51,756 nucleotides of DNA, from the NCBI GenBank assembly GCA_017465845.1, contig JAFTVH010000156.1, positions 1 to 51,756 of the forward strand, written 5' to 3'. The translations under genes and the position numbers were made by a program. Of the stretch, positions 34,996 through 48,369 are shown in pieces; the stretch's first letter is position 1; each line of letters starts with the position of its first letter. The notes below the pieces were generated by a model, which did no database searches, was not told the origin of the DNA, and saw only the letters and a list, made by a program, of their open reading frames with translations. The stretch comes from Lachnospiraceae bacterium (GTDB taxonomy: Bacteria; Bacillota; Clostridia; Lachnospirales; Lachnospiraceae).

Positions 34996-36591
34996 GTGAA
35001 AATACGGGAAATGTTTAAAAAACATAAGAAAAAAGTAATTATCCTGACAGCGGCGGCTCTGATTCTGGTAATAGGAGTGGGCGCTTTTGTCGTTTTCCGG
35101 GTAATGAAAAGTGCCAAAGGAGATGGTTCCTTTAGCATGGGCAGTTTCTGGAACTCAAACGGTATGTCAGGCATGATGAATACCGAAGGCGTAGTGAGCG
35201 CTTCCGGTGTGACCAGTGTGGGCATGAACCAGGAGACATTTGAGGTTGAGAATCTGTCGGAAGGGCTTCTGATTGAAGAAGTCTATGTCTCTTCCGGAGA
35301 AGAAGTGGCTGAAGGAGATGTGGTGCTCAAGCTATCAGAGGATACGGTAGCGCTGGCCAGAGAAGAACTGGAGGCTGTCTTGAAAGAGGCAGAGCTTGCT
35401 TATCGTACCGGTGCAATCGAGTATCAGCAGAATCTGATTACCATCCAATATGACAGAGACCTGGCAGTGTTGGGCGGCGAGCAGGCACAGGAAATCTACA
35501 ATGAGACGATAGCCTCTTTAAAGGATCAGGTGGACAGCGCCCAGGAAGCTCTTGACGAGACGAAGGAGCAGATTGCAGAATACCAGGCCCTGGTGGAAGG
35601 CGACGATTATTACAATACATATAAAGTAGGAGAGTACAAAGCCCTGTATGATGAAAATCTGGAACTGTTACAGAACAAGATGGAGGAATGGGGCATTTCC
35701 TGGTCGCAGGTGATCAGCGGCGGAGGCGGCCAGAGCTCTTTTGGCGGAATGTCAAGTGCAGCAGGAAGCAGAAGCGTGGTATCCGGCGGCGAAAATGTGT
35801 CCGGCGGTGATGCCATGGGCGGCGCAGATTACGGCCAAGGTGCAGACTCCGGCCAGACTACAGACCCAGGCTATACTAAGGTGCTTACAGCCCTTTACAG
35901 TGTTCTGGAACAGAACCTCAAAGATTACGAACAGGCTCAGGCAGATTATGAAGAGGCCTGCTCAGATGCCAGACTGACACTGCAGACCTTGGAACTGGGA
36001 TTAAGCTCCAAGGAAGAGGCGCTGGCACAGGCAAAAGAACAGTACGAGACACAGATTCTTGAAGCAAAGCTGACGCTGGAGACTTCTCTTGCCGATGCCG
36101 AGCGTGCACAAAGCGATTATGAAACTGCTCTTGAAAAAGCAGAATCGGATTTTGAATCTCTGACAGATACTTGGGAAGATGCCAAAGAAAATCTGGAATT
36201 GTTTGAAAGCAGTGTAGGAGACGGCTATTACCGTGCTACTGTCAGTGGTACGATCATGAGCGTGATGACAAGAGCGGGGCAGTATCTGACATCCGAGGGT
36301 ATGATCTTCATGTGCCGCAATACTGAGGAATTGACCGTAACGGTATCGGTGGATCAGGAAGATATTGCCAAGATTGAAGTGGGTGGAACGGCCTATGTAC
36401 AGTCTTCCGATTATGGCAGCTTTAACGGTACGGTAAGCAGTATCAATCCGGTATCTACTTCCGAAAGCAGAGCCAATGTAACTTATCAGGTAACTGTTTC
36501 ACTGAGTGGAGACACAGAGACGCTTCCTGCAAACGAAACAGTCACTGTACTCTTTGGACTGGGAGGAAATACCGATGAAAAAGAAAACTAA
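34996..36591 (+). CDS. HlyD/MacA-type membrane-fusion adaptor 1
   Basis: A 531-residue adaptor starting at GTG 34996, with GGAGG 7 bases before. It has a transmembrane anchor (about 14-35) and a lipoyl half-motif (LLIEEVYVSSGEEVAEGDVVLKL). Two coiled-coil helices (about 120-225 and 298-405) follow, then the second lipoyl half (GTIMSVMTRAGQYLTSEGM) and a beta-barrel. At the tip of the helical hairpin is a Gly/Ser-rich loop of about 50 residues (about 240-293). In MacA that tip meets the outer-membrane channel, which a monoderm lacks. First gene of a six-gene MacAB-like operon. Confidence 0.9.
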   Translation: MKIREMFKKHKKKVIILTAAALILVIGVGAFVVFRVMKSAKGDGSFSMGSFWNSNGMSGMMNTEGVVSASGVTSVGMNQETFEVENLSEGLLIEEVYVSSGEEVAEGDVVLKLSEDTVALAREELEAVLKEAELAYRTGAIEYQQNLITIQYDRDLAVLGGEQAQEIYNETIASLKDQVDSAQEALDETKEQIAEYQALVEGDDYYNTYKVGEYKALYDENLELLQNKMEEWGISWSQVISGGGGQSSFGGMSSAAGSRSVVSGGENVSGGDAMGGADYGQGADSGQTTDPGYTKVLTALYSVLEQNLKDYEQAQADYEEACSDARLTLQTLELGLSSKEEALAQAKEQYETQILEAKLTLETSLADAERAQSDYETALEKAESDFESLTDTWEDAKENLELFESSVGDGYYRATVSGTIMSVMTRAGQYLTSEGMIFMCRNTEELTVTVSVDQEDIAKIEVGGTAYVQSSDYGSFNGTVSSINPVSTSESRANVTYQVTVSLSGDTETLPANETVTVLFGLGGNTDEKEN

Positions 36592-38401
36592 GCGAATCAT
36601 CATCATAGCCGCAGCAGCGTGCCTGCTGGTATTTGCGGCATGTTATACGGTTTTTATCGCTCCTCTTCTGGAAAAAGAGAAGTGGGTCTATAAGGAAGCT
36701 ACGGTAGAAAGAGGTACCCTGACAGTAGGTGTTACAGAAAGCGGCTCCCTGGAATATGGGCTCACCTCAGTGCTTTATGATCTGGATCTGTCTGTAGTAG
36801 TCAGCGATGACGATGAAGATGACGAAGATGATGAAGATGACGAGGAGACCGTTCAGAAATATCTGAAAGTAGAAGAAGTGTATGCAGTGGCAGGCCAGCG
36901 GATTCAGGCAGGAGATGCGCTGCTTAAGTTTACCGAGGACAGTGTTACCGATGTGCGAAAGCTCCTTAACAGTGCCTTGATCGATGCCAAATCAGACTAT
37001 AACGAAGCCAAGGCAGAGTATGATCTGGCTGCTTTGGAGGCCAAGACGGATTATGAGACTTTGAAAATAGGTGAAAAATATGCTTCCGATACGTATCAGG
37101 CGGCAAACAGCGCGCTTGCAGATGAAATCAGTGCCATGGAAATCCAGTTGACACTGTATAACAATCAGGTGGCTGATTTGGAAGAAGCAGTGGCAGAAGC
37201 TGAGGAAGATTATGCGGAGGCACTGGAGACGTATGAGGTCGCCAAAGAGACTATGAGCATTACGGGAACAGACAATGCCGATAATTTCCTGACTATCCAG
37301 TCCGGATATCTCAGCGCACAGACTCAGTACCAGAATGCGGAGAATGCTCTTTCTCAGGCAAAACAGAAGCTGGAGCAAAATGCAGAACAGATTGCCTCTC
37401 TGACAGAGCAAATTGCTTTATCCAGAGCAAGATACCGGATCGACAGGATGGATGTGCTGGAAACATATCAGGAGAGTGTCCTGGATGGAAAAAATGCGGA
37501 GATTACTTATAATGCCCAGCTGGAAAGTCTGGAAGAGGATCTGGCGGAGGCTGAGGAGGACAGACAGAAGCTGGAAGAACAGGTGGAAGCTTTTGAAGCC
37601 TTTGTGGGAGAGGACGGCATCCTTTACGCTGACGGCGAGGGAATCGTGACCCAGGTGCAATATGAGGCCGGAGATACTTTACGACAGAACGGTACGGTTT
37701 TATCGTATGCGCCGCCAACCGACATGACAATATCTGTAGATATGACCCAGGAAGATGTCGTGGCGCTGCAGGTTGGAGATACGGTTGAAATCGCATTTAC
37801 TGCGTATGAAGATACCGTTTATGAAGGAACGATTCTTTCCATCGATACCACAGCAACCTCAAGAAACAGTGCTACCATCAGTTATGAGGTAATCATCGGT
37901 GTAGAAGGAGATACGACAGCGCTTTACGGCGGTATGACTGCTGATATTACTTTTGTAACGGAAGAAAAAGAGGATGTACTGTATGTTTCCAGAAAAGCAA
38001 TCGTGGAACAGGATGGCAAGACTTACGTTTATGTAAAGAGCGGTCTGAACGGAAAAGAACTGAGGCAGGTGACAACAGGCATCAGTAACGGTATTTCCAT
38101 AGAAATCGTGGATGGTCTGGAAGAAGGAGATACGATTTACATTGCAAGTAAGGTGAGCAGCGAGGAAGAGATCGAGGCTCAGGAAGAAAGTGAAGAAGGC
38201 AGTGATGACGGTGAGAACGTAGATATGGAGCAGATGTTTGAAAACTTCACGCCCGGCGGCAATGGGCAGTCCGGGAGCTTTATACCGGGAGGTGCGGGCC
38301 AGTCCGGTGGCTCTACTCCCGGAGGTAATGGTCAGCCCGGCGGTTTTAACCCGGGACAGATGCCGGGAAATGATTCCACAGGAAGGGGGGCAAGACCTTG
38401 A
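36575..38401 (+). CDS. HlyD/MacA-type membrane-fusion adaptor 2
   Basis: A 608-residue adaptor overlapping adaptor 1 by 17 bp. GGGAGGA precedes the ATG at 36575. It has a transmembrane segment (about 7-29) and the conserved VGVTESGSLEYG. An acidic tract (about residues 78-91, SDDDEDDEDDEDDEE) splits the first lipoyl half and is encoded by near-repeats of GATGAAGATGAC. Long coiled coils, a second lipoyl half (GEGIVTQVQYEAGDTL) and a barrel follow. The tail (about 558-602) carries imperfect 11-residue PGGNGQSGGF-type repeats. Paralogue of adaptors 1 and 3. Confidence 0.9.
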   Translation: MKKKTKRIIIIAAAACLLVFAACYTVFIAPLLEKEKWVYKEATVERGTLTVGVTESGSLEYGLTSVLYDLDLSVVVSDDDEDDEDDEDDEETVQKYLKVEEVYAVAGQRIQAGDALLKFTEDSVTDVRKLLNSALIDAKSDYNEAKAEYDLAALEAKTDYETLKIGEKYASDTYQAANSALADEISAMEIQLTLYNNQVADLEEAVAEAEEDYAEALETYEVAKETMSITGTDNADNFLTIQSGYLSAQTQYQNAENALSQAKQKLEQNAEQIASLTEQIALSRARYRIDRMDVLETYQESVLDGKNAEITYNAQLESLEEDLAEAEEDRQKLEEQVEAFEAFVGEDGILYADGEGIVTQVQYEAGDTLRQNGTVLSYAPPTDMTISVDMTQEDVVALQVGDTVEIAFTAYEDTVYEGTILSIDTTATSRNSATISYEVIIGVEGDTTALYGGMTADITFVTEEKEDVLYVSRKAIVEQDGKTYVYVKSGLNGKELRQVTTGISNGISIEIVDGLEEGDTIYIASKVSSEEEIEAQEESEEGSDDGENVDMEQMFENFTPGGNGQSGSFIPGGAGQSGGSTPGGNGQPGGFNPGQMPGNDSTGRGARP

Positions 38402-40203
38402 GAAAAGTAATGGAAAAGAAAAGTGCTAAAATCATAATCGCTCTTGTGTGTATCCTTGTCCTGGTGGTAGTGGCTGTGGCACTGGCCGGGAACGATGCTT
38501 CAGAAGAGGTTACGTATAGAGAGACTGCAGTAGAATATGGAGAACTGGTAGTAGGTGTCACCGAAAGCGGTTCCGTGGATATCGGTACAGTGGACCAGGT
38601 GTTTGAACTGGATATGAGCGCTCTGCAGAGAGCAGAGACTACGGGCAGTTCGGGCAGCAGAACCACAGGAGGTAGCGGCGGTACGGCAGTCAGTGCAGCA
38701 GGCAGCACAGTGGACAACAGTGGCTTTGGCGTGGGTATGTCGGGCGGTATGTCAGGTACCATGTCAGGTGGCATGATCGGTTCCGGCATTACCGGCAGTA
38801 CAGGCAGTAGCACAGGTTCGTCCGGCGGCATAGATATGTTCAGTCAGATCTTCAATATGGCAGGAGGCGGCAGCAGCGCTTCTACCGATACCATCGGTAA
38901 TCTGACGGTATCAGAGGTATGTGTTTCCGTAGGACAGCAGGTGCAGGAAGGTGATGTTTTGTTCCTGCTTAACGAGGAAACAGTAACCGAACTGAAAGAG
39001 GAACTGGAATCCAATGTAGACAAAGCCAAGGCAGATCTGGAGGCAGTATATGCAGACCAGGAAATGTCCAAATTGACGGCGCAGTACACCTATGACAGCA
39101 GCGTGGCTTACGGTGAGTATGCCGATACAGAATACAATAACACAATTAAAAGCCTGCAGGATGCAGTGACCGAAAAAGAGGAAGCTTTAGCAGAGGCAAA
39201 AGAACTCCTTGCCGGCTATCAGGCTCAGCTGACCCAGGCACAGGCTGATTATGCGGCAGCAGCGCAGGTGCTTAAAAACTGTACCTGGAGTGTGGATAAC
39301 ACAGACAAATGGGACGACACCTGGGGATATGTATCCGGCTATCAGCTGATGATATCTGCCCGGAACAGCGTAGACACGCTGGAACAGAAGGTAGAGCAGC
39401 TGGAGCGGAATGTGGAGCAGGCGCAGCAGAATGTGGATACCTGTACCACTTCCTTAAGCCAGGCAAAACGCTCTTTAGAGTCCGGTAAGCTTAATGCGCA
39501 GCAGACTTTGGAACTGAGACAGCTGGCATACGATACCGCACAGGAGACTTACGATATTGCCCAGGCATACTTGGAGGATACTGCAGCATCTCAGGAAGAG
39601 GTTTATGCTGAGGCTCAGGAAAAATGGGACGAATTCAGTTCCCACATCGATGGAAATGCAGTGCGTGCCAAATATAACGGTGTCATCACCAGTGTCAATC
39701 TGGAGGTCGGCGATAGTATCGGTACTAACGATACCCTTGTAACCCTCTATGATACGGACAGTGTGGAGATGACCATCACTGTGGACGAAGACGATATGAC
39801 AGATGTTGCAGTCGGAACAGAAGCCAAGATTTCTCTCACTGCTTATCCTGATACTATTTTCCGGGCCAGTGTCAGTGAAATATCCGATGCTTCCACCGAT
39901 TCCGGCGGAAACGTGACTTATGAAGTAACGGTAATCCTTTCAGGCGATGTGTCCGGTCTGTTCCAGGGTATGACAGGAGATGTGACTCTGATTACCCGCC
40001 GGACAGAAGATGTACTTTACGTATCTAATCGTGCGATTATCAGGGAAGGGACTGATTCTTACGTAAAGATTAAGGATGCCTCCGGTAACATCGTAAAACA
40101 GAAGGTGACCACAGGATTCTCCGATGGTGAAAATGCAGAAATTATAGAAGGGCTTTCAGAAGGTGACGTAGTGCTGATTGAAAGTAAGGTGAACAAATCA
40201 TGA
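38398..40203 (+). CDS. HlyD/MacA-type membrane-fusion adaptor 3
   Basis: A 601-residue adaptor. The likely start is TTG 38398, whose TTGA overlaps the previous stop, with GGAAGGGGGG 7 bases upstream. The next ATG (38410) is too far from that site. It has a transmembrane anchor, VGVTESGSVDIG, and a Gly/Ser/Met-rich insert of about 80 residues (about 81-160; MSGGMSGTMSGGM) at the same place as the acidic tract of adaptor 2. Coiled coils, lipoyl half (YNGVITSVNLEVGDSI) and barrel complete it. Three paralogous adaptors in one operon suggest a hetero-oligomeric extracytoplasmic assembly (inference). Confidence 0.9.
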   Translation: MRKVMEKKSAKIIIALVCILVLVVVAVALAGNDASEEVTYRETAVEYGELVVGVTESGSVDIGTVDQVFELDMSALQRAETTGSSGSRTTGGSGGTAVSAAGSTVDNSGFGVGMSGGMSGTMSGGMIGSGITGSTGSSTGSSGGIDMFSQIFNMAGGGSSASTDTIGNLTVSEVCVSVGQQVQEGDVLFLLNEETVTELKEELESNVDKAKADLEAVYADQEMSKLTAQYTYDSSVAYGEYADTEYNNTIKSLQDAVTEKEEALAEAKELLAGYQAQLTQAQADYAAAAQVLKNCTWSVDNTDKWDDTWGYVSGYQLMISARNSVDTLEQKVEQLERNVEQAQQNVDTCTTSLSQAKRSLESGKLNAQQTLELRQLAYDTAQETYDIAQAYLEDTAASQEEVYAEAQEKWDEFSSHIDGNAVRAKYNGVITSVNLEVGDSIGTNDTLVTLYDTDSVEMTITVDEDDMTDVAVGTEAKISLTAYPDTIFRASVSEISDASTDSGGNVTYEVTVILSGDVSGLFQGMTGDVTLITRRTEDVLYVSNRAIIREGTDSYVKIKDASGNIVKQKVTTGFSDGENAEIIEGLSEGDVVLIESKVNKS

Positions 40204-41651
40204 GACTATCGGAAATCTTTAGACTGGTATACCTGAATCTGATACAAAATAAATTTAAAGTAATTTTAACTTCCATCGGTATTGTTGTGGGTTCTGCCAC
40301 CATCATGCTGGTTATCGCCATCGGTACCGGCGGTCGTGAGGAGGTTGCGGAACAATTCAAGAACCTGAATGCGGGAGCCATTGATATTTCCTATGAGGGC
40401 GGATCCGCCTTTGGTGGAATATCTATAGGCGGTATGTCCGGCGGTTCTAACGGAGGCAGCTCTTCCGGTGGCTCTACAGGGCGCAGCCAGGGCGGCAGCA
40501 GAGGCGGAAGTTCTTCAGGCTTTTCCATGCCGGATATTGCACAGGCATCAGGCGGCTTTAGCGGAGGTGGCATGAGCGGCGGCTTCGGTGGAGGCGGTTT
40601 CGGCGGCGGTATGGGCGGCTTTAATATCGGCAACTTGTTCGATATGTTTGGCGGCGCAGATGATCGAATCAATCAGGAAGCCGTTACACTCACCACTGAT
40701 GATATGGAAGATCTGGAGGTATTCGTACCCGGCATTTTAGATGCTACCATATCCTATTCCACAAGTGCTTCTGTAGAAGGAGGTGAACTGGATTCCGCGT
40801 CTTATTATACGGTTGCAGGCGTCATGGACAATTACGCCGAGCTCAGCAACCTGGAGATGTCTATCGGAGATTTCCTGACAGAGGAAGAAAACGAAAACAA
40901 AGAAAAAGTCTGCGTGCTGGGTATCACCGCCGCCAAGGAAATCTTCGGAAGCGCATACGATGCATACGACCAGGTGGTTTATATTGATGACAGACCTTAT
41001 CTGGTAACAGGTGTGCTGTCCGAGATGGGAACCGTAGCATCCGGCATCAGCCCTGATACTGCGATCTTCATTCCTTACGAAACCGGTATCAAATACATTA
41101 CCGGTACCTCCGTCAGCCCTACGATTACCGTCATCGCTGAAGATGTGAATCAGGTAGACCGGATCAGCAGTAACGTGGAAACTGTACTGGCTGACAGCTA
41201 TCCCAACACAGAGTTCACCATTTCCGATGCCGGAAGCAAGATGGATGCAGCATCTGCTTCCAATGACACCCTGACATTGCTTTTGATTTCCATGTCAGTC
41301 ATTGTCTTTATCGTAGGCGGTATCGGCATTATGAACGTTCTGTTCGTATCCGTAAAAGAGCGTACCAATGAAATCGGTATCCTGAAAGCATTGGGCTGTT
41401 CCAGACGTGATATTTTGCTTGAGTTTTTGCTGGAGGCCAGCTGCATCAGCCTTATCGGTGCAGTCATCGGAGTCCTGTTGGCACTGGGCATCACACCTAT
41501 CGTAGAGCTCTTCTCCATCAGAGTGGAGCTGTCAGCCAGCGGTGCGGTACTGTCCCTGCTGTTCGGCGTAGTGACCGGCAGCCTGTTCGGATTCTACCCG
41601 GCATACAAGGCGTCCCGACTGATTCCGGTAGTGGCGCTGAATCAGGAATAA
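40200..41651 (+). CDS. MacB/FtsX-type ABC transporter permease
   Basis: A 483-residue permease overlapping adaptor 3 by ATGA, with AAGGTGA before the start. Its topology is one N-terminal helix (about 18-42), a large MacB-like extracytoplasmic domain, and three C-terminal helices. The conserved GGIGIMNVLFVSVKERTNEIGILKALGCSRRDIL loop couples to the ATPase. A Gly-rich insert (about 65-147, rich in GGSSSGG and GGGFGGG) interrupts the outer domain. Such permeases transmit mechanical force to move peptides or lipids rather than import solutes. Works with the ATPase at 42546. Confidence 0.93.
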   Translation: MRLSEIFRLVYLNLIQNKFKVILTSIGIVVGSATIMLVIAIGTGGREEVAEQFKNLNAGAIDISYEGGSAFGGISIGGMSGGSNGGSSSGGSTGRSQGGSRGGSSSGFSMPDIAQASGGFSGGGMSGGFGGGGFGGGMGGFNIGNLFDMFGGADDRINQEAVTLTTDDMEDLEVFVPGILDATISYSTSASVEGGELDSASYYTVAGVMDNYAELSNLEMSIGDFLTEEENENKEKVCVLGITAAKEIFGSAYDAYDQVVYIDDRPYLVTGVLSEMGTVASGISPDTAIFIPYETGIKYITGTSVSPTITVIAEDVNQVDRISSNVETVLADSYPNTEFTISDAGSKMDAASASNDTLTLLLISMSVIVFIVGGIGIMNVLFVSVKERTNEIGILKALGCSRRDILLEFLLEASCISLIGAVIGVLLALGITPIVELFSIRVELSASGAVLSLLFGVVTGSLFGFYPAYKASRLIPVVALNQE

Positions 41652-41670
41652 TATTTTGAGGAAGATGGAT

Positions 41671-42534
41671 ATGAAGAAGAAAACGAAAATGCAGACTGAA
41701 AATAAAGCAGAGGCTTCCAATACAAAAGCGGTCTGGGATGCCGCCGACGAAAACTCTATGATTATAGAGCAGGAGCGGCAGGCCAGGGCAAGAAAGAAAA
41801 AGAAGCACCGCGTAAAGAAACGGGTGGCTTTGTGCCTGGTAGTGGTACTGATCGTGGGCGGTATCTGGTATGCGGGCTGGGGCAGGAATCTGCTTGATAC
41901 GCAGGAAGAAAACACCGTGACCATCCAAGTGGGTGCAGGACAGACGGTGATTTATGCATCATTGGATGCTGTGAGAGGGAATGAGATTACTTATGCGGTT
42001 GCACGGGAAATGAGCAGCGGGCAGGAGAATGCCGCAAATGAGGGAACTGCCGGAAATCGAGGAGCCGCGGATGGGCAGGAACGCACCGGAATGCAGGGAA
42101 CGGCCGGAACCCAGGGAGCTTCAGGAACCCAGGGAGCCGATGATGCTCAGGGAACACAAGGTCAGAATGGCTTCAAGGGCAGAGGTGAATCAGGAGAAGG
42201 ATTTGGCCGGCGTGGCGCTGGCGGAGAAATGCCAGATGGTATGAGTTTACTGAACGGCATGAGCTTGCCAGATGGAATGTCTTTGCCGGACGGTATGACG
42301 ATGCCAGGTACTACCACAGCAGGATCAAGTTCCACTACTTTTACTTATAATGATGTAACTTATCAACTGACGGAAGAAAGCGTCACCACACAAATACCCG
42401 TAGGCACAGATGTAACGACCAGGCTGGGAACCGTAACGACATTTTCCCGCCTTGCAGCAGGTGACCTGGTAGCGCTGGTGGTACAGGAAGTAGACGGGCA
42501 GCAGGTCATCATGTCCGTATATATCATAGGATAG
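41671..42534 (+). CDS. Membrane-anchored collagen-like accessory protein
   Basis: A 287-residue protein with a charged cytoplasmic N-terminus and one helix (about 54-72, ALCLVVVLIVGGIWYAGWG). The outer part has a nearly continuous Gly-X-Y stretch (about 130-170: GMQGTAGTQGASGTQGAD and on), then repeats of the PDGMSL type (about 188-212) and a small beta domain. GAGGA at 41658-41662 supports the ATG at 41671. No known family is recognised beyond the repeats. It lies inside the exporter operon between permease and ATPase and is probably a structural partner of it. Confidence 0.75.
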   Translation: MKKKTKMQTENKAEASNTKAVWDAADENSMIIEQERQARARKKKKHRVKKRVALCLVVVLIVGGIWYAGWGRNLLDTQEENTVTIQVGAGQTVIYASLDAVRGNEITYAVAREMSSGQENAANEGTAGNRGAADGQERTGMQGTAGTQGASGTQGADDAQGTQGQNGFKGRGESGEGFGRRGAGGEMPDGMSLLNGMSLPDGMSLPDGMTMPGTTTAGSSSTTFTYNDVTYQLTEESVTTQIPVGTDVTTRLGTVTTFSRLAAGDLVALVVQEVDGQQVIMSVYIIG

Positions 42535-42545
42535 GAGGTGCCGCA

Positions 42546-43208
42546 ATGATTACCATGAAAAATATCAACAAAGGATATATGTTGGGTGAAGAAAAGCTTC
42601 CCATATTGAAGGATATAAACTTCCATGTAGATAAAGGAGAATTTGTGGCAATCCTGGGGCCTTCCGGTTCCGGTAAGACTACGCTGATGAACATCATCGG
42701 CTGTATGGACGTAATGGACAGCGGTGAGTATTACCTGGACCAGATGGCAATCCATGAGACAGACGAAGAAGATCTGACGGAGGTACGCAACAGTAAGATC
42801 GGGTTTATTTTCCAGAACTATCAGCTGATTTCCACTTACAACGTCATGCAGAATATCGTGATGCCTCTGCTGATGCGAGGAATGAACTACAAAGAGGCAC
42901 AGGAGCAGTGCATGGAAACGATTCGCCTCCTGGGGCTTGACCATCGTATCGGACACCGTCCCAGCGAGCTTTCCGGCGGACAGAAGCAGCGTGTATCCAT
43001 TGCACGTGCCTTGGTAGGAAAACCTGCCATTCTGCTGGCCGATGAGCCCACCGGTGCACTTGACCAGAACAGCGGTAAGGACGTGCTGAAGCTGTTCGGG
43101 GAATTGAATGAGATGGGCAATACGATTGTTATGATTACACACGATCTGAATGTGGCGAAATGCGCTAAGAGAATTGTGCGGATCGTGGATGGACAGTTGT
43201 ATGAGTAA
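42546..43208 (+). CDS. ABC transporter ATP-binding protein (MacB/LolD type)
   Basis: A 220-residue ATPase with Walker A GPSGSGKTT, Q-loop FQNYQLIS, signature LSGGQKQR, Walker B ILLADEPTG and the H-loop MITHD. The order and spacing are those of the LolD/MacB branch, in which the ATPase is separate from the FtsX-type permease. AGGAGG lies before the ATG. It is the last gene of the operon; a hairpin stop follows about 90 bases downstream. It energises the assembly made by the permease and the three adaptors. Confidence 0.95.
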   Translation: MITMKNINKGYMLGEEKLPILKDINFHVDKGEFVAILGPSGSGKTTLMNIIGCMDVMDSGEYYLDQMAIHETDEEDLTEVRNSKIGFIFQNYQLISTYNVMQNIVMPLLMRGMNYKEAQEQCMETIRLLGLDHRIGHRPSELSGGQKQRVSIARALVGKPAILLADEPTGALDQNSGKDVLKLFGELNEMGNTIVMITHDLNVAKCAKRIVRIVDGQLYE

Positions 43209-43283
43209 ATTTGTCGGAAGGTAAACTTAATAATGACTTATGGATATTTCTATAAGGAACATTTCATTGGCAGCAGTATGCTG

Positions 43284-43341
43284 TAGCATCATGATGCTAA
43301 AGGCGGTAACACCAATCTAAAGAGGTGCTTGCCGCTTTTAT
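43284..43341 (+). terminator. Palindrome and terminator after the exporter operon
   Basis: TAGCATCATGATGCTA (43284-43299) is a perfect 16-base palindrome. It runs into a second, imperfect stem (AAGGCGGTAACACC against GGTGCTTGCCGCTT) followed by TTATTAT. It probably stops the exporter transcript. Confidence 0.6.
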
Positions 43342-43410
43342 TATGGGCTTTAGCCTGCCCGGCATGATTTTTGCGGGTTCTTTCTGAACTTTGGGAGTAC
43401 ATGAAGATAA

Positions 43411-43790
43411 ATTACATTTTAAAGCGATGCCAGCGGATAAAAACTCTACTTTCTCCAGTTTTATCCGTCGAAAACGCCCTCTTTAGAACGATGCCAACGG
43501 ATAAAAACTCTGCTTTCTCCAGTTTTATCCGTCGAAAACGCCCTCTTTAGAACGATGCCAACGGATAAAAACGCTATTCTTCCCAGTTTCATCCGACGAA
43601 AAACGCCATTTTAAAGCAACACTAACGGATAAAAACTCTATTTTTCTCAGTTTCATCCGACGAAAATCACCATTTTGCAACGATGTCAACGGATAAAAAC
43701 TTCTTTTTTTCTAGTTTTATCCGCTGAAAATGCCCAAATTATAGCGAGGTCATCGGATAAAAATATCATTTTTCCAGTTTCTGTCTGCTT
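43411..43790. repeat. Six-copy tandem hairpin array, 64-bp period
   Basis: The arm CGGATAAAA starts at 43434, 43498, 43562, 43626, 43690 and 43754, exactly 64 bases apart each time. Each unit has that arm, a 16-base pyrimidine-rich loop, the inverse arm TTTTATCCG (TTTCATCCG in copies 3 and 4) and a 30-base linker such as TCGAAAACGCCCTCTTTAGA. Copy 6 has lost its second arm. There are no variable spacers, so it is not CRISPR. No gene lies within the array or between 43342 and 43994. Confidence 0.92.
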
Positions 43791-43994
43791 CAAGACTTTA
43801 TTCAACTCACAAATCGATGTCCCGTATATACCCATAGTCAAGAAAGAACCCAAAAAGCATGTATATGTCCCAAAGGTATGTCTCCAAGTGTATTGAAATG
43901 TTCTGCAGCATCTCTTTAAGTAGCTTAACCGATTGACATTACGTGCGAACTGCAATAAGCAATAGATAATTGCGCAAATGTAAAGTACTGTAAC

Positions 43995-44023
43995 TTGCTC
44001 AAGCCCGGCATAAACAGTATAAT
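43995..44023 (+). promoter_or_regulatory. Sigma-A promoter for the XRE regulator
   Basis: TTGCTC (43995-44000), 17-base spacer, TATAAT (44018-44023), 25 bases before the ATG at 44048. Confidence 0.7.
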
Positions 44024-44047
44024 AAGTATAAAAAAGAGGGTGTGATG

Positions 44048-44557
44048 ATGAACAAAGCAAAGGATAATAACCGCAACATTGTAAATGCCGTTCTTAGAGT
44101 AAGACAGGATAATAATCTTTCACAGGAAGAATTTGCTGAAAAAGTTGGAGTTACAAGGCAGGCTGTATCAAGGTGGGAGATGGGCATTTCGGTGCCAAGT
44201 ATAAACACACTTATTTTGATCAGTGAGATCTTTAATGTTTCTATTGATGCAATGGTGAAAAGCAAGGGAAATATTGACGAAAAAATTTCATTGGATTCTC
44301 AAAGAGAAAGGTCAAAATTTAATAAGGGGATTGCACTTATTGTTGCTGGTTTCTTAGGAATGATATGCTTGCCTTTTCTTGCAGAATGGGAGCAGGCTAA
44401 AAATATGGAAATTTTCAAAACCGCCTATGAGCATTCATACAATTATATTTTAGAATATCCACTATACATTATATTAGTGTCGGCTTTAGCTCTTATTGGC
44501 TTGGGAGTATATTTCACCCATGCATCTGAGGACAGATTTGATAATGCGGAAGGCTAA
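44048..44557 (+). CDS. XRE-family regulator with membrane-spanning C-terminus
   Basis: A 169-residue protein. Its Cro/CI-type helix-turn-helix (about 8-62: LRVRQDNNLSQEEFAEKVGVTRQAVSRWEMGISVPSI) is followed by a linker and two hydrophobic helices (about 97-117 and 137-157). This HTH-plus-two-helix layout is common in Lachnospiraceae and suggests a membrane-tethered regulator. Of the ATGs clustered at 44045-44050, the one at 44048 has the best spacing (7) to AGAGGG. Its targets are unknown; it is convergent with the DUF3990 pair. Confidence 0.85.
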   Translation: MNKAKDNNRNIVNAVLRVRQDNNLSQEEFAEKVGVTRQAVSRWEMGISVPSINTLILISEIFNVSIDAMVKSKGNIDEKISLDSQRERSKFNKGIALIVAGFLGMICLPFLAEWEQAKNMEIFKTAYEHSYNYILEYPLYIILVSALALIGLGVYFTHASEDRFDNAEG

Positions 44558-44624
44558 TGCTGAAAGCCTGATGGCGCGCTTTATGGGAGCGAAAATAAAA
44601 TAGTGGTGCTATGCTCTGCAAAAT

Positions 44625-44658
44625 AGAAGGAGCTTTACCTCAGTGTGAAGCTCCTTCT
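44625..44658 (-). terminator. Terminator of the DUF3990 operon
   Basis: AGAAGGAGCTT (44625-44635) and AAGCTCCTTCT (44648-44658) form an 11-bp perfect stem, followed on the minus strand by ATTTTG. The right arm and part of the loop lie in the last codons of the minus-strand gene. Confidence 0.65.
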
Positions 44659-45104
44659 GTCTGAGTATAATGGTCGGACAGCATATCGTCCAATGCATCA
44701 ACAAACTTTGAGATATCTGCTTCATGCAGTGTGTCATACATGCCCAACATAGTTTCCGCAGAAACAGCCTGCAAGATGTATTGAAAGCGGCAATTTTTTA
44801 ACCAGGAATAATATGCAAGTGACCAGCCCAGCCAGTATTCTGGGGATTTGTCCAGATACATTGCATCGGGCTCTTCGATATCAGTTCCTGTAATTTCCCA
44901 AATGACTTCTCTTACCAGCTCACAGCCTGTTTTACCTGCAATATAGGAGGGATTACCTGTCTCAAACTGGGTACATACGTCGGAGGCAAGAAACATTTGA
45001 AAATAAGCATCAATATCGAATTCACAGGTGTTGACTGCGAAATCTACCATATGTCCCAGGTTTTTCTGGGCGTGATATAAATAAGATTCATCGTAAGCGT
45101 GCAT
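44640..45104 (-). CDS. Conserved partner of DUF3990 (antitoxin candidate)
   Basis: A 154-residue acidic soluble protein beginning MHAYDESYLYHAQKNLGHMVDFAVN and containing the SYIAGKTGCELVREVI block. Proteins of this type (Tyr/Asp-rich start, a helix ending in YIAGxxGxELxREV) commonly sit next to DUF3990 genes; this rests on recollection. It overlaps the DUF3990 gene by 17 bp, downstream in the same operon. I infer a partner or antitoxin role; no enzyme motif is seen. Confidence 0.6.
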   Translation of the reverse strand: MHAYDESYLYHAQKNLGHMVDFAVNTCEFDIDAYFQMFLASDVCTQFETGNPSYIAGKTGCELVREVIWEITGTDIEEPDAMYLDKSPEYWLGWSLAYYSWLKNCRFQYILQAVSAETMLGMYDTLHEADISKFVDALDDMLSDHYTQTEGASH

Positions 45105-45759
45105 CGTCCTGTTTCATCTCCTCTCGAATAATATCAATTATGAATAACTCGTCGGCAGAAAGAGTGGAGCGTTTTGTCATACGGTATTCTCTTCTGGCGG
45201 CAACATCCCTTTCTTTTTTCTTTACATAATAAACAGAGGCACCGGCAGTGGAATAAGAGACAAATTTTATGTTTTCAAATGCTTTTTCAGAAACCAGAAC
45301 AATCTGTTCTCCTAATTTGCCTAACCGCATTGCTTCTGCTAATTGTTTGTAAGAAATGGTACCGGATACAAAATCCTGGGCGAAAGAAAAGTAGGAATCA
45401 TCTGCCCGGTATCCGACAATCACATCATACGGAGAAGTGTCAATCAAAAAGTTTTCGGCAAGATATCTCTTGGCAAGTTCGGAGATTGTACTGTTTTCCC
45501 AATAGGTTCTGTTCTTTGCTAAGATGGCGAGCCAATTTAGGATATTGTATTGGCTGGAATTAAGATACAAAATATTCAGTCCTTCCAAATCAAACACATA
45601 TTTATTGGCAAAACCGTCTTTATTATGGGAGCATGCCCATTCTTTCGCGAGTTCTTCATTTTCCGTACAATAAAAGCCCCGCCCATAATCGTTATTTTTC
45701 TTCCCTAAACCGTAGGTCGGGTGCTCGATGATATTTTCACTGCCATGATATAGTATCAT
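45088..45759 (-). CDS. DUF3990 protein, ADP-ribosyltransferase-like
   Basis: A 223-residue protein starting at the ATG 45759, which follows AGAGGTAAG on the minus strand. It begins MILYHGSENII and has DYGRGFYCTEN (Y25-C31). The H5/Y30 pair and the later GTISYKQL region resemble the H-Y-E layout of the ADP-ribosyltransferase fold assigned to DUF3990. Such proteins are thought to act as toxins or protein modifiers, usually beside the small partner found here. The precise catalytic glutamate is not certain from reading alone. The ART fold is established for the family only in part. Confidence 0.72.
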   Translation of the reverse strand: MILYHGSENIIEHPTYGLGKKNNDYGRGFYCTENEELAKEWACSHNKDGFANKYVFDLEGLNILYLNSSQYNILNWLAILAKNRTYWENSTISELAKRYLAENFLIDTSPYDVIVGYRADDSYFSFAQDFVSGTISYKQLAEAMRLGKLGEQIVLVSEKAFENIKFVSYSTAGASVYYVKKKERDVAARREYRMTKRSTLSADELFIIDIIREEMKQDDARLR

Positions 45760-45801
45760 AATCTTACCTCTTAGGTTGATATGTTTGAAGGTTGTAAATA
45801 T

Positions 45802-45830
45802 ATTATACACATATGAGCGTAGATTGCCAA
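45802..45830 (-). promoter_or_regulatory. Strong promoter of the DUF3990 operon
   Basis: On the minus strand: TTGGCA (45830-45825), 17-base spacer, TATAAT (45807-45802) with TGTG just before it. The leader to the ATG at 45759 is about 35 bases. Confidence 0.75.
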
Positions 45831-45927
45831 CGAATATTTTATATATCGGCTTTTAGCAAGTGAATCAGCCGTGTGTAATACAGTTATTTTTCGTAAAAAA
45901 TCCCTACAGGAAAGTAAAAATCCCCCA

Positions 45928-45956
45928 TTTAACGTAAAGCAGAATATTTTTATAAT
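45928..45956 (+). promoter_or_regulatory. Weak promoter candidate for GH127
   Basis: TTTAAC (45928-45933), 17-base spacer, TATAAT (45951-45956), about 50 bases before the GH127 start at 46006. The -35 is poor, so an activator may be needed. Confidence 0.4.
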
Positions 45957-46005
45957 ATTTGCAAAAGACAAATCAGGGCGGAGTCAGCCCCAAAAGGAGG
46001 ACTAT

Positions 46006-48125: not shown

Positions 48126-48198
48126 GCGCCTCTAGCTCAGTTGGTAGAGCACCTGACTCTTAATCAGGGTGTCCAGGGTTCGAGCCCCTGGAGGCGCA
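48126..48198 (+). tRNA. tRNA-Lys (anticodon CTT), copy 1
   Basis: A 73-base cloverleaf. The acceptor is GCGCCTC/GAGGCGC with discriminator A. The D-arm is GCTC/GAGC, the anticodon stem CCTGA/TCAGG holds loop CTCTTAA (anticodon CTT), and the T-arm is CAGGG/CCCTG with loop TTCGAGC. The CCA is not encoded. It is identical to copy 2. Confidence 0.96.
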
Positions 48199-48248
48199 TG
48201 CAAGTTCCTGGGATTGCTGATTGAGCGGTTTTGGGACTTACAATATAA

Positions 48249-48321
48249 GCGCCTCTAGCTCAGTTGGTAGAGCACCTGACTCTTAATCAGGGTGTCCAGG
48301 GTTCGAGCCCCTGGAGGCGCA
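48249..48321 (+). tRNA. tRNA-Lys (anticodon CTT), copy 2
   Basis: Same 73-base sequence and fold as copy 1, with no encoded CCA. The 50-base spacer shares fragments (GGATT, AGCGG, TTTTGGG) with the sequence after copy 2, so the whole unit appears tandemly duplicated. Confidence 0.96.
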
Positions 48322-48324
48322 TCG

Positions 48325-48369
48325 AAGTCTCAGGATTCGCCGAAAGAGCGGGTTTTGGGGCTTTTTTTT
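48325..48369 (+). terminator. tRNA operon terminator
   Basis: AAGTCTCAGGATTCGC (48325-48340) pairs over 16 bp with GCGGGTTTTGGGGCTT (48348-48363), six of the pairs being G-U, and a T-run ends at 48369. Confidence 0.8.

Follow-up and report, generated by a model that had tools for sequence, protein, structure and literature searches.

Dispersed arrays of palindromic units with helically phased A/T tracts in a Lachnospiraceae genome

The window analyzed here, by which we mean the whole stretch of 51,756 nucleotides (positions 1 to 51,756, forward strand, of contig JAFTVH010000156.1 from a Lachnospiraceae bacterium, assembly GCA_017465845.1), carries an array of six 64-bp units, delimited by repeat and pattern analysis at positions 43411 to 43794. 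Upstream lies a gene for an ABC transporter ATPase (42546 to 43208, plus strand), preceded on the same strand by HlyD-type and MacB-type genes, and downstream a gene for an HTH_3 (XRE-type) protein (44042 to 44557, plus strand), so that the array stands between an exporter operon and an XRE gene, as an earlier reading made from the sequence alone had described. In the region 34996 to 40203, ahead of the genes for the MacB-type permease and the ABC ATPase, three successive large ORFs (531, 631 and 601 aa) resemble membrane fusion proteins; the third, the sole one of the three checked, is HlyD by Pfam. Elsewhere in the window, Tandem Repeats Finder identified a 123-bp tandem duplication (48126 to 48363) containing a tRNA-like sequence.

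The left arm of the unit, CGGATAAAA, occurs six times, starting at 43434, 43498, 43562, 43626, 43690 and 43754, that is, in five steps of 64 bp each, and Tandem Repeats Finder returned one array at 43418 to 43780 with a period of 64, 5.7 copies and a score of 356. Palindromes 1, 2 and 5 (43434 to 43467, 43498 to 43531 and 43690 to 43723) read CGGATAAAA-N16-TTTTATCCG, and in palindromes 3 and 4 (43562 to 43595 and 43626 to 43659) the right arm is TTTCATCCG; both this variant arm and the exact 64-bp steps agree with the sequence-only reading. In units 1 to 5 the loop measures 16 nt and the linker from arm to arm 30 nt. The sixth palindrome (43754 to 43787) has a degenerate right half (TTTCTGTCTG), so the array consists of five full palindromes and an eroded last one, comparable to the eroded last units at three other loci (unit 6 of L002, unit 7 of L003 and unit 7 of L006). 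A larger repeat, about 43370 to 43880, encloses the array. Its left end (GGTTCTTTCTGAACTTTGGG..., 43370 to 43410, plus strand) and its right end (CACAAATC..GTCAAGAAAGAACC..TGTATATGTCCCAAA, 43795 to 43873, plus strand) each contain one half of an inverted pair that frames the array (43370 to 43395 and 43831 to 43856, 26 nt, 81% complementary).

Searched at the DNA level with this element, the window's genome (hereafter G000; 4.19 Mb in 201 contigs) yielded 15 matches at E<=1.2e-11, corresponding to 13 places including that of the window once two neighbouring pairs had been merged. The copies are 72 to 85% identical across the matching pieces and contain from 1 to about 8 units each; one is interrupted by a contig end. 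The right end (CACAAATCAATGTCC, with at most 3 mismatches) was found at nine of the 13 places and the left end at seven, two of these being weak matches. Two different conserved end modules thus surround a variable number of tandem middle modules, which is the layout of BOX elements, and the spread of the copies is BOX/MITE-like. When MITE-type terminal repeats were looked for, TTGGACATAT-type tips were present on some copies only, beside the imperfect inverted pair of the window copy.

By DNA similarity the element had no match at E<=0.001 in 40 other genomes, 24 of them of the same genus. The exact palindrome pattern was present in 3 of 138 genomes of the genus, with 22 sites in G000 and one in each of the two others. 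The copies are thus old in the lineage of G000 and were not found in the relatives searched.

Within G000 the register of the units is held while their bases drift, as had been proposed from the window alone. Among 55 left-arm spacings, 47 are 64 bp, six are 63, one is 61 and one is 44, and the 47 units of 64 bp differ pairwise at a mean of 14.8 of the 64 positions. The loop is 16 nt long in 61 of 71 units, 15 in nine and 13 in one. The information per position, calculated over 61 units, amounts to 1.89 and 1.63 bits in the arms, 1.23 in the loop and 1.29 and 0.90 in the linkers; three T residues at the loop centre are nearly invariant. These results support a constrained register of the G000 array units.

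We scanned 84,980 species genomes with a pattern in which the arms and the loop length were fixed. Six loci were recovered, five of which, in four genomes, lie within short palindrome arrays, while the sixth, in Ferruginibacter, is a single site. The array hosts are rumen or gut Clostridiales, Saccharofermentans and one Fibrobacter draft; the four array genomes carry 19, 14, 2 and 6 exact copies, and a reversed control pattern gave none. Samples of the phylum and of two families, all including the seed genomes, were scanned as well. Of 398 genomes in the phylum sample, two had the pattern, G000 and one other at a single site, and the reversed control hit five genomes once each. In the Fibrobacter family the pattern occurred in 2 of 111 genomes, at 21 and 2 sites, and the control in none; in the Saccharofermentans family it occurred in 8 of 115, at 1 to 24 sites per genome, and the control in 2 of 115. 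Because the reversed control hit 5/398 and 2/115 genomes, the lone matches in genomes G207, G454 and G472 are close to chance level. The loops of the units in the comparison genomes measure 15 to 17 nt, although 10 to 22 were permitted. Since arms and loop were preset in the first scan, the query itself partly selects for the CGGATAAAA that G000 shares with the other genomes, and the palindromes of G000 and of the comparison genomes may reflect either shared ancestry or convergence. One array is found at the same place in three genomes, so arrays can pass vertically. The Fibrobacter draft (L152:902-1000) also carries the palindromes TACGGTCTATA/TTTAGACCGTA and TTACGGTCTAA/TTTGACCGTAA at a distance of 63 bp, which repeat the design with a different arm word.

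A viral origin was considered and rejected: the stricter pattern had no locus in viral contigs. A looser pattern matched six viral contigs (L127 to L132), each with a single CGGATAAAA-N14-18-TTTTATCCG palindrome and no second one in the surrounding DNA available.

In the comparison genomes the distances between units fit whole helical turns. In G437 to G440, 65 centre-to-centre spacings fall at 62.5-64, 73-74.5, 84-85, 94-95, 104.5, 126-127, 156.5, 166.5 and 179 bp, and a scan of periods from 6 to 16 bp peaked at 10.45-10.5 bp (R 0.957), with a poorer value at 11.0 bp (0.711). The 19 distinct spacing values alone gave R 0.916 at 10.5, the Fibrobacter spacings alone peaked at 10.4, and 95 spacings from more loci, some from doubtful palindromes, gave R 0.943 at 10.5. 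At L183:8405-8695 the spacings of 52, 74, 74 and 51 bp (148 being read by eye as two steps of 74) correspond to five and seven turns. A period of 10.5 bp matches the helical repeat of B-form DNA, and single-stranded RNA offers no evident reason for it.

The A/T tracts follow the same helix. Tracts of at least 4 bp were best fitted by a period of 10.35-10.70 bp (scan 8-14 bp; R 0.56-0.90) in all of 34 arrays, which were hand-picked, 11 coming from G000 and some of the others being orthologues, and in each array the phasing at 10.5 bp was reached by a fraction of at most 0.010 of 300 dinucleotide shuffles. All 34 chosen arrays therefore hold such tracts at the helical repeat over at least 100 bp, and phased A-tracts are the classical cause of intrinsic curvature, as described in the available text of PMC3940949 and PMC3431218. 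Within the window, among 857 stretches of 360 bp, the eight highest phasing scores (14.9 to 7.6) all touch the array, the best elsewhere being 6.3; in eight of eight other loci, again hand-picked, the best-phased stretch touches the array. About two helical turns separate the AAAA end of one arm from the TTTT end of the other, which would explain the fixed loop length.

Because the arm tracts are phased by the motif itself, loops and linkers were scored apart. For the loops R was 0.81 in G000 (at 10.62 bp, a period chosen after the result of the tract scan was known), 0.72 in Clostridiales and 0.60 in Fibrobacter (both at 10.5 bp), and for the linkers, at the same periods, 0.81, 0.59 and 0.67. 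In the flanks up to 160 bp outside the arrays, R was 0.18 (p 0.01) in G000, 0.08 (p 0.18) in Clostridiales and 0.28 (p 6e-8) in Fibrobacter, all Rayleigh values given here assuming independent tracts, which tandem copies are not. The cleanest set is formed by the 74-bp linkers, yet L185 contains duplicates and L137 and L142 are orthologues: the 69 tracts in 34 such linkers keep step with the dyads (R 0.79), and the linkers themselves are unrelated, with a mean best-strand identity of 40% (28 linkers). Fibrobacter linker tracts are likewise phased with the dyads (R 0.61, n=75). In the 63-bp linkers alone the phasing was not significant (R 0.28, n=23).

In the comparison genomes, units differ in the central part of their arms, and the two arms of a unit change together, giving GACGGAT-, GACGGGT-, GACGTACT-, GACCTAC- and TACCGAC-AAAA. 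Between aligned homologous arrays, single units have exchanged GACGTACTAAA/TTTAGTACGTC for TACGGATAAAA-type arms, with loop and linker alike. Shuffle tests on 93 units of G437 to G440, many of them related, gave p<=0.001 at arm positions -1, 3 and 4. At places predicted from the spacing alone, 9 to 11 of 11 arm pairs were found at six of six, against 0 of 450 controls, some of these units having been seen before; three of the six predicted midpoints reached nine pairs with fewer registers, and all six with more registers and a matching control. The five units at L183 use three arm words (GGAT, CTAC, CGAC), and four of them are perfectly self-complementary over 11 bp. No paired arm change was found among 69 units of G000. 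Symmetric repair of quasi-palindromes can keep arms paired, and the paired changes speak for this, for a cruciform or hairpin stage, or for a symmetric dimer.

The 20 annotated flanking proteins are unrelated and mostly housekeeping, two being without a Pfam match, and ten encoded next to other copies represent a mix of unrelated families (AraC, ClpB-like, M3 peptidase, SpoVAD, NeuB, MatE and others). Gene orientation was taken, with ORFs called by length only and all genomes pooled, around 37 arrays that include nine of the 13 G000 places; four lie at contig edges, one overlaps an ORF, and the remaining 32 comprise 8 convergent, 18 tandem and 6 divergent pairs, which is near chance, so that promoters are not the common target. 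A common neighbour encoding a partner was also rejected: the 30 largest groups of neighbour proteins, compared all against all, are common families where annotated (ABC ATPase, AraC, AzlC, cyclophilin, hydrolase) or come from orthologous loci. One neighbour family without a Pfam match adjoins arrays of G437 and also of G438. Two proteins related to each other, 267 and 275 aa long and encoded at L134:7685-8488 and L151:5741-6568 beside Clostridiales and Fibrobacter arrays, likewise lack a Pfam match.

We lean towards the view that the array is an interspersed extragenic element of the BOX/BIME kind, phased and probably curved, that acts as double-stranded DNA for a bending or wrapping protein. 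This reading builds on the observed arrays, their dispersal in G000, the fixed unit length, the whole-turn spacing in the comparison genomes and the helical phasing of the A/T tracts. Each unit is a palindrome of about 34-38 bp, with AAAA and TTTT about two turns apart and an A/T tract often at its centre; the units repeat at whole helical turns, and the tracts between them hold the same phase. By the established behaviour of phased A-tracts, such an array would be intrinsically curved. On weaker grounds, and by analogy, a bending or wrapping protein might lie along one continuous face, either an HU-like protein or DNA gyrase as at E. coli BIME-2, and the intergenic region might thereby hold the apex of a DNA loop, or act as a supercoiling sink, between transcription units. 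Of the three guesses offered by the sequence-only reading, an RNA decoy, a protein-binding array and a source of structural RNA, the second comes nearest to this, and its idea of a minus-strand RNA did not hold.

Several observations count against a curved DNA element bound by a protein. Curvature needs no paired arm changes such as those in the other genomes, whereas a hairpin would explain them. The phasing in the 63-bp linkers was not significant, and the Fibrobacter and G000 flanks are themselves weakly phased. In a second palindrome family of G000, two of the three spacings at one locus (L201) are not whole turns.

A selfish, non-autonomous mobile element of the MITE/BOX type without a role for the host, whose palindromes and constant length would serve its own transposition and whose helical period would arise as a by-product, would account for dispersed copies with common ends and an inverted end pair, and for the patchy occurrence (by DNA similarity in 1 of 41 genomes; by exact pattern in 3/138, 2/111 and 8/115, seeds included). 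Its by-product period sits poorly with the 74-bp arrays of the Saccharofermentans family, the linkers of which are unrelated yet phased, and the array that occupies one place in three genomes also argues against it. We regard this explanation as rather unlikely.

The arrays could instead be tandem hairpins of a structured RNA serving as a decoy, an mRNA stabiliser or a processing site, which we consider improbable. Folding of both strands, a check that the sequence-only reading had called for, favoured the minus strand (z -5.2 against shuffles; plus strand z -1.3), but better folding of the minus strand alone is no proof of a transcript. The covariation among the G437 to G440 units, the pairwise exchange of whole arm words between homologous units and the arm pairs at all six predicted places also fit an RNA stem, and are explicable too by the symmetric repair mentioned above. 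In G000 the picture is different: the hint of a minus-strand transcript, drawn from a G-U pair in the window copies, is rejected by balanced counts of G-U-type arm mismatches (36 on the minus and 31 on the plus strand, 71 units), no compensatory pairing between the arms was found in 69 units, and pairing is not preserved on one transcript strand. Neither does single-stranded RNA give a reason for spacing by whole turns of 10.5 bp. A search of Rfam with positions 41000 to 46000 had no match at E<=1, and promoter-like (3; shuffles 3.4) and terminator-like matches (1; shuffles 0.9) occur at the level of shuffles.

It is very doubtful that the units are REP elements spread by a RAYT-type tyrosine (Y1) transposase. 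They are REP-sized, extragenic and clustered, Y1 transposase genes are present, one each, in G000 (L196, G000:C112:16469-16837) and G438 (L195, G438:C151:168-524), and GTAG or its complement stands beside the stem in 28 of 138 units outside G000. Described REPs, according to the portion of PMC3733652 available, carry an unpaired GTAG or CGTC end tag, have mostly short loops, of 2-20 bp (GTAG families, hence reaching the length of ours) or 4-5 bp (CGTC families), and mostly form head-to-head dimers. The GTAG tag is found in none of 69 G000 units, and CGTC in the other genomes lies mostly within the paired arm, as GACG...CGTC. RAYT mobilisation was rejected on the transposase: a Y1 transposase (PF01797) was not found in five of the seven array-bearing genomes, drafts that may be incomplete, and no CGGATAAAA palindrome lies in the 2.0, 3.4 and 5.0 kb around the two Y1 genes (L195, L196, L211).

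An operator array for a transcription factor such as the neighbouring XRE protein, the partner proposed by the sequence-only reading, is highly unlikely and was dismissed on gene context: in-phase palindromic sites on one DNA face would suit cooperative binding and an HTH_3 gene does lie downstream of the window array, but the copies adjoin genes of unrelated protein families, 8 of the 32 classified arrays sit between convergent genes, and in other genomes the central arm bases differ between units of one array.

Returning to a protein-bound DNA element, we found no description of such arrays among open-access papers, among the matches listed, and known systems resemble them in part. BOX elements of S. 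pneumoniae (boxA-boxBn-boxC) have conserved ends around variable tandem middle modules and are dispersed, as the available part of PMC3049150 describes; the element in G000 shares this layout, with its conserved ends and its variable run of middle modules in dispersed copies. It differs in that each middle module is a 64-bp unit in which A/T tracts are phased, and in that a similar palindrome occurs elsewhere without these ends. Like REP/BIME sequences, the arrays are small extragenic palindromes in clusters; unlike them, they have loops of 15-17 bp, an absent or rare tag and whole-turn spacing. In composition they are therefore BOX-like and in location and palindromes REP/BIME-like, and neither the REP end tag nor a Y1 transposase regularly accompanies them. 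The 74-bp arrays resemble CRISPR in being palindromic repeats with unrelated spacers of similar length. They differ from it in that the interior of the repeat diverges, loops included, where CRISPR has near-identical full repeats together with cas genes; the arrays are many and short (2-8 units), linkers are related in the 63/64-bp arrays, and no cas family occurs among the 20 annotated flanking proteins. The available text of a MITE review (PMC10969869) and of a paper on a REP survey tool (PMC12306157) held nothing decisive for the arrays.

For the protein, gyrase is by analogy the best model. In E. coli its 130-bp motif has flanks with a 10.75-bp periodicity, phased sequences are bound better, and some BIME-2 palindromes are cleaved in vivo, according to the part of PMC6379681 that is available. 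The period in G000, 10.55-10.70 bp, is closer to this figure than the 10.5 bp of the others, too small a difference to build on. A-tract clusters, that is, helix-phased A/T tracts linked to curvature and nucleoid packing (PMC3940949, available in part), have been put at loop apexes in a model of E. coli (PMC4761138, likewise). The tracts of our arrays are helix-phased in the same way; whereas A-tract clusters, as far as the available text of these sources goes, are apparently statistical and genome-wide, the phasing here is built from repeated palindromic modules over up to about 500 bp.

It is an open question how bacteria hold loops and supercoils at defined positions, and work on A-tract phasing has so far treated it mostly as a statistical feature of whole genomes. 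Modular arrays in which whole-turn spacing persists and the rest drifts offer a direct handle, as the addition of 5 bp to each linker should abolish function and that of 10 or 11 bp should not, and they offer a sequence test of the preference of gyrase or an HU-like protein in Clostridia and Fibrobacter. It is conceivable, though we hold it only tentatively, that the arrays represent an undescribed and widespread class of DNA architecture, in which modules at 5-10 turns, with phase kept through unrelated linkers and with paired arm words, form a nucleosome-like wrap or loop for a dedicated protein. Because the arm words vary (GGAT, GGGT, GTACT, CTAC, CGAC), searches with fixed arms could have missed many members.

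The second palindrome family of G000, about 38 bp in length, has the form TTTGGACATA-N20-TATGTCCAAA, with paired changes GGACAT/ATGTCC and GGGCAT/ATGCCC, and was found at L198 to L208 on contigs C193, C8, C34, C83, C53, C157, C36, C10, C60, C200 and C165. Its members stand in short groups, such as that at L201:563-826 with spacings, by eye, of about 92, 52 and 81 bp. The best tract period is 10.1-10.35 bp in six of eight copies and otherwise in two of eight. Half-copies resembling this family make up the tips of some of the array elements.
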